Positions 14,761 through 21,246 of a stretch of DNA of 48,695 nucleotides are shown here, piece after piece; position 1 is the first letter of the stretch, and each line of letters opens with the position of its first letter. This DNA is from Deltaproteobacteria bacterium (GTDB taxonomy: Bacteria; Desulfobacterota; DSM-4660; Desulfatiglandales; HGW-15): positions 1 to 48,695 of the forward strand of contig JAFGGA010000030.1 of NCBI GenBank assembly GCA_016930835.1, given 5' to 3'. A program made the position numbers and the translations under genes. The notes below the pieces were generated by a model, which saw nothing but the letters and a program-made list of their open reading frames with translations, was not told the origin of the DNA and searched no databases.

Positions 14761-15588
14761 ATGAGCCTTATACATATCGATGAAGTGAAATGTAAAAAAG
14801 ATGGTTTCTGCACCAAGGAATGCCCGGCCGCCATTATTCGTCTCAGGGATGGGGATGGCTTTCCGGAAATGGTGCCGGGGGGTGAGGCAATGTGTATCGA
14901 GTGCGGTCATTGCGTGGCGGTTTGTCCCCATGGCGCGCTGAATCATGAACGGGTGCCCTTAAATGCCTCTCCGGAAATCAACAGGGATCTCGCACTCTCA
15001 GCGGAACAAGTTATCCAATTTTTACGCTCCCGGCGCTCGGTTCGCGTCTTTAAAAAAGATCAGGATGTTGAAAAAGACAAGATAAAAGTCTTGATTGAAA
15101 TCGCCCGCTATGCGCCTACAGCCAGCAATGCGCAACCTTTGGAATGGCTTGTCATTACGGATAAAACGGAAATCAAAAGGTTGGCCGGAATGACCGTGAA
15201 CTGGATGCGCCGTTTAATCAAGGACAATCCGGATAATCCTGCGCTCATGTATATACCGCGCATTGTAGAGGCTTGGGACCTGGGATATGATGCTGTTTTA
15301 CGAAGGGCGCCCGTTTTGATCGTTGTTTCGGCTCCAAAAGAAGATCCCAATGGTTTGGTAGACATTTCCATTGCGCTTGCCTATCTGGAATTGGCTGCCG
15401 GCCATATGGGCTTGGGTTGCTGCTGGGCCGGCCTGTTACAGAACGCCCTGCGCTATGTCCCGGAAATAAAAAAAGGATTGGGCCTACCTGAAAGGCATAT
15501 CCATCATTACCCCATGATGCTGGGCTATGCGAAATTTCCCTATTATCGAATGCCTGAACGAAAAAAGCCAACAATAAGATGGAGATAA
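14761..15588 (+). CDS. Ferredoxin-nitroreductase fusion protein (275 aa)
   Basis: An N-terminal two-cluster ferredoxin module (residues 1-60) is joined to an FMN-dependent nitroreductase domain (about 80-275; RSRRSVRVF, ARYAPTASNAQPLEW, and GLGCCWAGLL). The second cluster motif is complete (Cys45-x2-Cys48-x2-Cys51-x3-Cys55-Pro). The first reads Cys11-x2-Asp14-x2-Cys17-x3-Cys21-Pro, with Asp in place of the second cysteine, as in Pyrococcus furiosus ferredoxin. Such fusions are widespread in anaerobes and probably reduce an organic acceptor with ferredoxin electrons; the true substrate is unknown. RBS AGGAG sits eight bases before the ATG. The lipoprotein gene at 15591 follows after 2 bases. 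Confidence 0.9.
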   Translation: MSLIHIDEVKCKKDGFCTKECPAAIIRLRDGDGFPEMVPGGEAMCIECGHCVAVCPHGALNHERVPLNASPEINRDLALSAEQVIQFLRSRRSVRVFKKDQDVEKDKIKVLIEIARYAPTASNAQPLEWLVITDKTEIKRLAGMTVNWMRRLIKDNPDNPALMYIPRIVEAWDLGYDAVLRRAPVLIVVSAPKEDPNGLVDISIALAYLELAAGHMGLGCCWAGLLQNALRYVPEIKKGLGLPERHIHHYPMMLGYAKFPYYRMPERKKPTIRWR

Positions 15589-19513: not shown

Positions 19514-20344
19514 ATGGGAACCAAAGCTATGAATGACAGCTTCTTATATCGGGATGTCCCGACATTTGGGAAACAGGTTTTTCGGCTCGGACTGGCAACC
19601 AATTATGGCATTGACGGCGATGATCTGGAATGGGCACTGGCTCAAGGCATGAACTATCTGTTTTGGACATCCCGGGCACGAAAGGTTACCCCAGCACTTA
19701 AAGCTGCCCTTAAAAGAGATCGGAAGCCTGTTATTTTGGCTTGCGGGCCTTTACTCGGATTTTTTGGTGGCAGTGTCAAGCGGGGTTGCGAACAGATACT
19801 TAAGGAGCTTGACACGGATTATATCGATATTTTTCAGCTCTTTTGGCTTGGTCGCACCAGCGCACTGACCCCGGCCACATTAGAAACCTTGATAACCCTT
19901 CGGGAGTCGGGTATGGTGAGGGCCATCGGTGTCAGTATTCATGATCGAGAGCGGGCGGGAAAGCTGGCCGGCGATTCTCCTTTGGACATGTTTATGATCC
20001 GTTATAATGCCGCCCATACCGGGGCGGAGCAGGACATATTCCCTTATCTGGCCAGGCGGAGGCCCGCTATGGTGGCCTACACAGCCACACGATGGGGCGC
20101 CCTCCTGAAACGTCCGAAAGGCTGGGAGGGGCCGGTGATGACGGCGGCTGATTGCTATCGTTTCTGCCTGAACAATCCCAATGTCGACCTGGTTCTGACA
20201 GGCCCGAAAGATCGTCGGCAACTCCAAGAGAATTTGAATCAGCTTCGTGAAAAAGGGCCATTATCAGAGGAGGAGCACAAATGGATGCGTGAATTCGGGC
20301 GGGTTGTCCACAAGGCAAGTTCCAGATTTACATTTGGATATTAG
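19514..20344 (+). CDS. Aldo/keto reductase-like protein lacking the catalytic tetrad (276 aa)
   Basis: Overall layout is that of an aldo/keto reductase TIM barrel: LKELDTDYIDIFQLFWLG, LRESGMVRAIGVSIHDRE, MIRYNAAHTGAEQDIFPYL and LTGPKDRRQLQENL are recognisable family blocks. The residues that normally form the tetrad appear absent. GMNYLFWTSRARK replaces the 'DTAxxYG' segment (no Asp, no Tyr), VILACG lacks the lysine, and LFW replaces the 'HWP' histidine. The cofactor-binding end is partly preserved. Starts at 19514 and 19529 are both possible; neither has a clear SD. The EFR1-type flavodoxin-ferredoxin gene begins 11 bases after it, suggesting joint function. Confidence 0.8.
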   Translation: MGTKAMNDSFLYRDVPTFGKQVFRLGLATNYGIDGDDLEWALAQGMNYLFWTSRARKVTPALKAALKRDRKPVILACGPLLGFFGGSVKRGCEQILKELDTDYIDIFQLFWLGRTSALTPATLETLITLRESGMVRAIGVSIHDRERAGKLAGDSPLDMFMIRYNAAHTGAEQDIFPYLARRRPAMVAYTATRWGALLKRPKGWEGPVMTAADCYRFCLNNPNVDLVLTGPKDRRQLQENLNQLREKGPLSEEEHKWMREFGRVVHKASSRFTFGY

Positions 20345-20355
20345 GTCATTTCAAT

Positions 20356-21246
20356 ATGAAGAGCATTGTTATCTATTTTTCCCTTACTGGGAGCACAAAA
20401 AAGGTCGCAAGGGCCGTTTATCAAGGTATGAGGGGACATTCGGACTTTTGTGATATAGCCAAAATGAGTGAAATCTCCGCCCACCGGTTAATCGATTATG
20501 ACTTAATTGCCCTGGGGAGTCCGGTTTGGGGTGGTGTTCCGTTAAATGTCAGGCTTTTCTTTAGCGCCGTCCCTTCTCTTAAAGGAAAACACGCTATTGC
20601 CTTTTGCACGCATGGTATCTTACCGGAGCCTTTTTTCCCACAGGTCATAAGCCTGCTAAAGAAAAAGGATCTTATCATCATCGGTATGAACGACTGGTAT
20701 GGGAGTGTGTTTCGACCGACGCTTCCGAAGCCATATTATACAGACGGACATCCCGATGAATTGGACTTGAAGGAGGCCGAGGTATTTGGGAGGGAAATGG
20801 TTGAATTGAGTCGGCGGATTGATAATGGTGAGACCGAACTCATTCCTACATTCCCCGAGACGCCCGAACTCCCACCCAGCAATCTCCCAAAACCTATGCC
20901 TACTCTGATGAAAGAAAAATGCCGCTTTCCGGAATGTCGGCTTTGCATGGATAACTGCCCGATGGAAGATATTGATCTCTCCGTGTCGCCTCCAAGATTT
21001 GCGAGGAACTGCACAAGTTGTTTTTTCTGTGAGATGATATGTCCCACCGGTGCTGTATACATAGATTATGAGGCCCGGGCCAAGGCGTCGCTGGGACGTG
21101 TGAAAGAGGTGTTCCTAAAACGATTGGAACAAGCGGAAGCGGAAGGGCGTTTTAGAAGACTTGTACCGAAAGAAGATATTGATCCCACGACACCCTATTA
21201 TAAGGTCTTCGATAAGCATCCCCGTTATGTAATCCCGGGAGACTGA
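20356..21246 (+). CDS. Flavodoxin-ferredoxin fusion (EFR1-type) electron-transfer protein (296 aa)
   Basis: Residues 1-150 form a flavodoxin-like domain with the FMN phosphate loop SLTGSTKKVA (9-18) and the GSPVWGGVPLN segment. Residues 185-235 bind two [4Fe-4S] clusters: Cys189-x4-Cys194-x2-Cys197-x3-Cys201-Pro (first spacing four instead of two) and Cys219-x2-Cys222-x2-Cys225-x3-Cys229-Pro. Proteins of this EFR1-like architecture are found in anaerobes; they probably carry electrons between ferredoxin and a flavin or radical enzyme. The gene starts 11 bases after the aldo/keto reductase-like gene. A proline-rich linker (FPETPELPPSNLPKPMP) joins the domains. Confidence 0.88.
   Translation: MKSIVIYFSLTGSTKKVARAVYQGMRGHSDFCDIAKMSEISAHRLIDYDLIALGSPVWGGVPLNVRLFFSAVPSLKGKHAIAFCTHGILPEPFFPQVISLLKKKDLIIIGMNDWYGSVFRPTLPKPYYTDGHPDELDLKEAEVFGREMVELSRRIDNGETELIPTFPETPELPPSNLPKPMPTLMKEKCRFPECRLCMDNCPMEDIDLSVSPPRFARNCTSCFFCEMICPTGAVYIDYEARAKASLGRVKEVFLKRLEQAEAEGRFRRLVPKEDIDPTTPYYKVFDKHPRYVIPGD

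Follow-up and report, generated by a model that had tools for sequence, protein, structure and literature searches.

Among described proteins, those closest to the barrel protein reported here are aldo/keto reductases (AKRs) of the AKR11 type (AKR11C1, 1ynp; IolS/AKR11A, 1pyf) and AKRs with a C-terminal ferredoxin-like domain, a group that we take to be COG1453 and that has a member, L106, in the genome under study. AKR17A1 of Anabaena is a cyanobacterial AKR set up as a family of its own, and its catalytic tetrad is reported as intact (Asp50, Tyr55, Lys88, His130; PMC4570671). PA4992 is likewise reported to retain the catalytic residues (PMC3539698). As both keep these residues according to their papers, they were rejected as nearest relatives, as was Kv-beta, which turns up as a fold match only.

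The barrel protein is encoded in a 48,695-nucleotide contig of a Deltaproteobacteria bacterium (the window, meaning the whole stretch of DNA analysed). A first-pass annotation of the window had described an AKR-like protein in which the catalytic Asp, Tyr, Lys and His appear replaced, and had suggested that such a pseudoenzyme could be a docking or substrate-binding partner of an adjacent flavodoxin-ferredoxin protein, or a new kind of oxidoreductase subunit.

The gene pair and the predicted barrel fold

The two genes are encoded as follows.

19514..20344, plus strand: AKR-fold gene without the catalytic tetrad, 276 aa (ORF, PF00248, AlphaFold2 model, structural match to 1ynp, family alignment)
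20356..21246, plus strand: gene for a flavodoxin plus two-[4Fe-4S] protein, EFR1-like but under the family cut-off, 296 aa

Both ORFs lie where the first-pass annotation had placed them, on the same strand and with 11 bases from the barrel-gene stop to the flavodoxin-ferredoxin start, and the CBS-ACT and MFS flanks that it reported are real. Translation of the barrel ORF probably begins at 19529 (271 aa) rather than at the first ATG at 19514, because orthologues align from codon 6, its second ATG. Because promoter-like matches are found upstream of the barrel gene and a search between the two genes revealed no terminator-like site, their co-transcription in the source genome is plausible and indeed probable; a functional link does not follow from it. 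A nitroreductase-ferredoxin fusion is encoded at 14761-15588, 4 kb from the barrel gene in the window.

The barrel protein scores 61.8 bits against Pfam PF00248, above the curated cut-off of 24, and its AlphaFold2 model, built from the 44-row family alignment described below, has a mean pLDDT of 92.5 and a pTM of 0.90. The model matches AKRs in Foldseek at 5.9e-15, the best VIA-align match is AKR11C1 (1ynp; Z 24.7, rmsd 2.9, 254 residues aligned, 22% identity), and in both searches the matches listed are AKRs throughout. By predicted fold and Pfam match, the protein is an AKR-type (beta/alpha)8 barrel and a member of the AKR superfamily. Examination of the tetrad in a structural model, which the first-pass annotation had called for, thus gave a confident AKR barrel with the tetrad positions replaced.

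All four catalytic positions are replaced in the window protein

For comparison we used 26 tetrad-bearing AKRs found with PF00248 in the relatives of the window (its own order), leaving out 3 of 29 PF00248 rows whose match to the family profile was weaker than 1e-12. These 26 were aligned jointly with 44 family members (43 of 44 matches plus the window protein; L020, which is cut by an in-frame stop, was left out) and, in a larger alignment, with 77 members (the 44 plus 33 more). Twenty-seven of the added rows, L166-L184 and eight proteins fused to HEAT repeats, come from the matches listed in the phylum of a second genome. Three of the replaced positions map to the following features.

19661..19666, plus strand: Phe50-Trp51 at the end of strand 2, with F50 in the catalytic Asp column (D or E in 26/26 tetrad AKRs and 0/77 family members; W51 in 65/77)
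19745..19747, plus strand: Gly78 at the end of strand 3, in the catalytic Lys column (K in 26/26 tetrad AKRs and 0/77 family members)
19841..19846, plus strand: Phe110-Trp111 in strand 4, with F110 in the catalytic His column (H in 26/26 tetrad AKRs and 1/77 family members)

At the four catalytic columns the tetrad AKRs carry D/E (26), Y (26), K (26) and H (26), and the window protein has F50 (Asp), R54 (Tyr), G78 (Lys) and F110 (His), which bears out the reported replacement of all four residues. In the 44 family rows, the Asp column holds F (26), Y (16), V (1) and L (1), the Lys column G (21), Q (15) and others, and the His column G (23), Y (9), F (7) and L (5), and the catalytic Tyr is found in none (0/44). 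The larger alignment extends the loss to the whole family for Asp (0/77) and Lys (0/77); a His stands at position 110 in one member, and a Tyr five residues past the Asp position survives in part of the clade (8/77, 7 of these HEAT fusions). The Tyr column is uncertain by one to two residues, and the two alignments place it differently. We therefore checked residues 51-60 of the window protein to cover the loop uncertainty and found no Tyr anywhere among them, so that the call of Tyr loss does not hang on the exact loop alignment. An intact tetrad elsewhere in the protein was rejected, since both the model and the alignment to tetrad-bearing AKRs pin down the barrel positions.

Given the Tyr that seven of the eight HEAT fusions retain at the catalytic spacing, and the His at 110 in a single member, the loss, as read from the alignments, appears to be stepwise and incomplete across the clade. 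Of 14 pairs, 13 gave dN/dS estimates of 0.06-0.18 and one was saturated; the values indicate strong purifying selection on the barrel gene, and by them we rejected a pseudogene. A replacement common to the whole clade, together with strong purifying selection, excludes chance or decay.

A different residue set is invariant at the predicted barrel mouth

Outside the tetrad columns, the alignments revealed three conserved stretches that follow strands 5 and 6 and precede strand 8.

19934..19948, plus strand: Ser141-x-His143-x-Arg145, after strand 5 (H143 in 77/77 and R145 in 76/77 family members; R145 in 2/26 tetrad AKRs)
20000..20017, plus strand: Arg163-Tyr-Asn-Ala-Ala-His168, after strand 6 (R163 and H168 in 77/77 family members and 0/26 tetrad AKRs)
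20156..20161, plus strand: Tyr215-Arg216, in the helix before strand 8 (Y215 in 76/77 and R216 in 77/77 family members; R216 in 10/26 tetrad AKRs)

His143, Arg163, His168 and Arg216 are present in all members (77/77), Arg145, Tyr215 and Pro231 in 76/77 and Glu172 in 75/77; the nearly invariant positions besides are Ser141, Tyr164, Asn165, Glu172, Tyr215 and Pro231. Two of these features are inherited rather than new: 15 of 26 tetrad AKRs have His143, and 16 have a basic residue at 216. The secondary structure of the model places His143 and Arg145 after strand 5, Arg163 at the end of strand 6 and His168 beyond it. Read from these strand ends, most of the invariant set would lie at the barrel mouth, on the side that holds the nicotinamide in AKRs, and the residues probably share one pocket. 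Aromatic residues stand at the ends of strands 2, 4 and 7 (F50, W51, F110, W111, Y189, W194).

Parts of the AKR cofactor site are still recognisable: Ser141, Tyr/Phe189 and a G-P-x-x-x-x-Q-L-x-E-N stretch after strand 8. With such partial traces in the sequence, the barrel protein may bind NAD(P). In many AKRs a Gln in one further column binds the nicotinamide; this column has Gln in 16/26 tetrad AKRs and M, H or L in 44/44 family members, and an Arg follows at 163. The earlier label of pseudoenzyme stands in one part, in that the canonical residues are gone; a dead site is doubtful, since other polar residues at the barrel mouth are invariant, which argues for a site that was rebuilt.

The family forms a separate clade across phyla

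In the tree, a single branch separates all 77 family members from the 26 tetrad AKRs (SH-aLRT 100), with a stem of about 1.2 changes per site. This test draws its tetrad AKRs from the window's own order alone and does not fix the root of the clade. Family matches were found at 1e-30 in 24/395 genomes of the window's phylum, and at 1e-25 in 19/85 genomes of its order, in 13/24 genomes of one family and in 52/282 genomes of the phylum drawn around the second genome. Nostoc plasmids encode relatives (35-36%) that are annotated as aldo/keto reductase and keep the new residue set. A search of the open-access literature revealed no published description of a tetrad-less barrel family of this kind, and we consider the family undescribed, cross-phylum and made up mostly of stand-alone barrels. 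In one genome (G048) the barrel gene is interrupted by a single in-frame TAG (L048:7339-8187), and copies in other genomes are intact.

Eight loci of the second phylum (L185-L192) encode a tetrad-poor barrel behind a long N-terminal region. Scans of five of these proteins assigned both PF00248 and, at 1e-18 or better, Pfam HEAT_2. The remaining three are classed as HEAT fusions on similarity and length only. All eight cluster together in the tree (SH-aLRT 99), and the model of one of them, of moderate confidence (pLDDT 76.5, pTM 0.46), has a helical-repeat array followed by the barrel.

A proposed rebuilt pocket and its alternatives

The reading that we favour, at what we judge to be even chances, is that the AKR pocket has been rebuilt to a basic, aromatic-lined site and that the protein is an uncharacterised enzyme or ligand-binding protein. 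In this mechanism the carbonyl-reductase site of the AKR barrel would be remodelled such that F50, W51, F110, W111, Y189 and W194, together with the Arg and His residues, make up a basic pocket with an aromatic lining that accepts a planar anionic ligand. The Arg residues would clamp the carboxylates or phosphates of this ligand, with His143 and His168 as a polar or acid-base pair. Such a protein would catalyse a different reaction or serve as a dedicated binder; NAD(P)H-dependent carbonyl reduction would not be its function. Between an enzyme and a sensor, we infer an enzyme. A more specific proposal, which we put forward tentatively and hold somewhat short of even chances, treats these proteins as a new family of enzymes built on the AKR fold. 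The tetrad would have been dismantled stepwise, with a Tyr still kept in HEAT-fused members, and the His143/His168 pair and an Arg145/Arg163/Arg216 clamp would act on a planar anionic substrate by other chemistry. The family would span at least three groups of bacteria, and in some lineages a HEAT-repeat scaffold would tether the barrel.

The same traces of the cofactor site would suit a non-catalytic sensor or scaffold, a barrel that binds a nicotinamide dinucleotide or a similar molecule without turnover and signals or docks through protein contacts. The eight members fused to a long N-terminal region, with HEAT repeats (a protein-binding scaffold) in the five scanned, point in this direction. 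However, 69 of the 77 aligned members are not HEAT fusions, neighbours are not conserved, and the invariant His/Arg set at the mouth exceeds what a binding remnant would need. We consider a sensor or scaffold unlikely, though the likeliest of the alternatives. Somewhat more doubtful is that the protein is still an NAD(P)H-dependent reductase in which His143 or His168 replaces the missing acid. All top structural matches are AKRs, and His143, Ser141 and Tyr/Phe189 are common to tetrad-bearing cousins, as such a reductase would lead one to expect; the loss of Asp and Lys in 77/77 members, and the M, H or L (44/44) with Arg next at 163 in the nicotinamide-Gln column that is Gln in 16/26 tetrad AKRs, argue against it.

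A rebuilt pocket would matter beyond this locus. Because fold and Pfam match are the usual grounds for assigning AKRs, members of the clade are annotated "aldo/keto reductase", as the Nostoc genes are, and despite this annotation they cannot use the known AKR mechanism. The lost tetrad, the clean replacement signature and the apparent intermediates would together make a case study of the re-tooling of a catalytic barrel, and the clade offers a small set of residues that mutagenesis could test directly.

Neighbouring genes are not conserved

Across the barrel family loci we found no conserved neighbour of any kind, and the neighbours that recur do so within limited groups. A flavin reductase gene neighbours the barrel gene in three genomes of one family (f30), and nitroreductase-ferredoxin genes lie about 1-4 kb from it in three loci of one genus (L049, L059, L060). 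At one locus (L195:1-2737), a gene for a molybdopterin-binding subunit is followed by one for a molybdopterin-dehydrogenase FAD subunit, whose end the barrel gene overlaps, as if in one operon. In three loci of one genus (L056, L058, L061) the barrel gene leads rubrerythrin, peroxiredoxin and desulfoferrodoxin genes in a common order that resembles an oxygen-defence operon.

This gene order, and a rubrerythrin near the barrel gene in two other families (3 lineages vs 0.6 expected, P 0.024), would be consistent with a role in the oxygen or peroxide defence of anaerobes. The rubrerythrin family, however, was picked after the neighbours had been seen, the genes run in the same direction in one lineage only, and the association covers 5/41 loci overall; we regard this role as improbable and the association as no more than a lead.

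The flavodoxin-ferredoxin protein has a flavodoxin domain followed by two 4Fe-4S motifs (CX4CX2CX3CP and CX2CX2CX3CP in its translation), with PF12724, PF12641 and PF12838 above cut-off. This architecture agrees with the EFR1 type that had been assigned to it, but its EFR1 (NF038196) score of 66.7 bits is below the NCBIfam cut-off of 75 and the label is approximate. Outside the window the pairing was not found. No flavodoxin-ferredoxin homologue (E 1e-3) lies near the barrel gene in 63 other family loci (0/63; 54 with at least 1 kb and 43 with at least 3 kb of downstream sequence), no barrel gene lies near the flavodoxin-ferredoxin gene in nine carrier loci (0/9), barrel orthologues at 72% identity are also without such a gene nearby, and no adjacent pair was seen elsewhere among the 395 genomes and the family loci. 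At the level of whole genomes the two genes co-occur mildly (5/395 vs 1.4 expected, P 0.009), a signal that weakens to 4 vs 1.3 expected (P 0.03) when the window's genome is removed and to 3 (P 0.09) when one genus is also collapsed. The first-pass annotation had named lack of co-occurrence as the finding that would speak against a partnership; adjacency is not conserved, and the partnership with the carrier is not upheld.

The nearest relative of the flavodoxin-ferredoxin protein (L120) is 83% identical and is found in a genome of another family, G048, on a different contig from the barrel gene of that genome. Since its own paralogues in the source genome are 53-54% identical, this suggests that the gene has moved between lineages, which fits a recently arrived neighbour, and the adjacency seems to be coincidental and local. 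That the barrel protein is a pseudoenzyme which docks onto or feeds the flavodoxin-ferredoxin is very improbable, with the 11-base gap on the same strand in the source genome, the mild co-occurrence and the C-terminal ferredoxin-like domain of the nearest tetrad-bearing cousins in the source genome on its side, and the lack of the pairing elsewhere (0/63 family loci and 0/9 carrier loci) and the fall of the co-occurrence to P 0.09 against it. In the rebuilt-pocket mechanism, the flavodoxin-ferredoxin would be a recent and local addition beside the barrel gene, with no obligate partnership between the two proteins.

Comparison with known systems

The flavodoxin-ferredoxin neighbour resembles the EFR1 family (NF038196) in having a flavodoxin domain and then two 4Fe-4S motifs, but falls under the family cut-off and is unlinked to the barrel family in other loci. 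For the barrel protein, AKR17A1 offers a likeness as an AKR set up as its own family, unlike the barrel protein in that its tetrad is reported as intact (PMC4570671). The AKRs with a C-terminal ferredoxin-like domain are the highest-scoring tetrad-bearing cousins in the window's order and share with the barrel protein S-x-H-D after strand 5, Q/R-Y-N after strand 6 and Arg216. They keep the tetrad, whereas the barrel protein does not, and the Cys-rich 4Fe-4S C-terminal extension of the cousins L106 and L145 is missing from the 276-aa protein. The AKR11-type proteins have the same whole barrel fold (Z 24.7 for AKR11C1, 1ynp, and 22.5 for IolS/AKR11A, 1pyf) and a profile match to the barrel protein at 4e-22, with the structural residues Asp105, Gly133 and Ser141 conserved in common. 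The barrel protein differs from them in that its catalytic Asp, Tyr, Lys and His are replaced, and in its new Arg145, Arg163 and His168.
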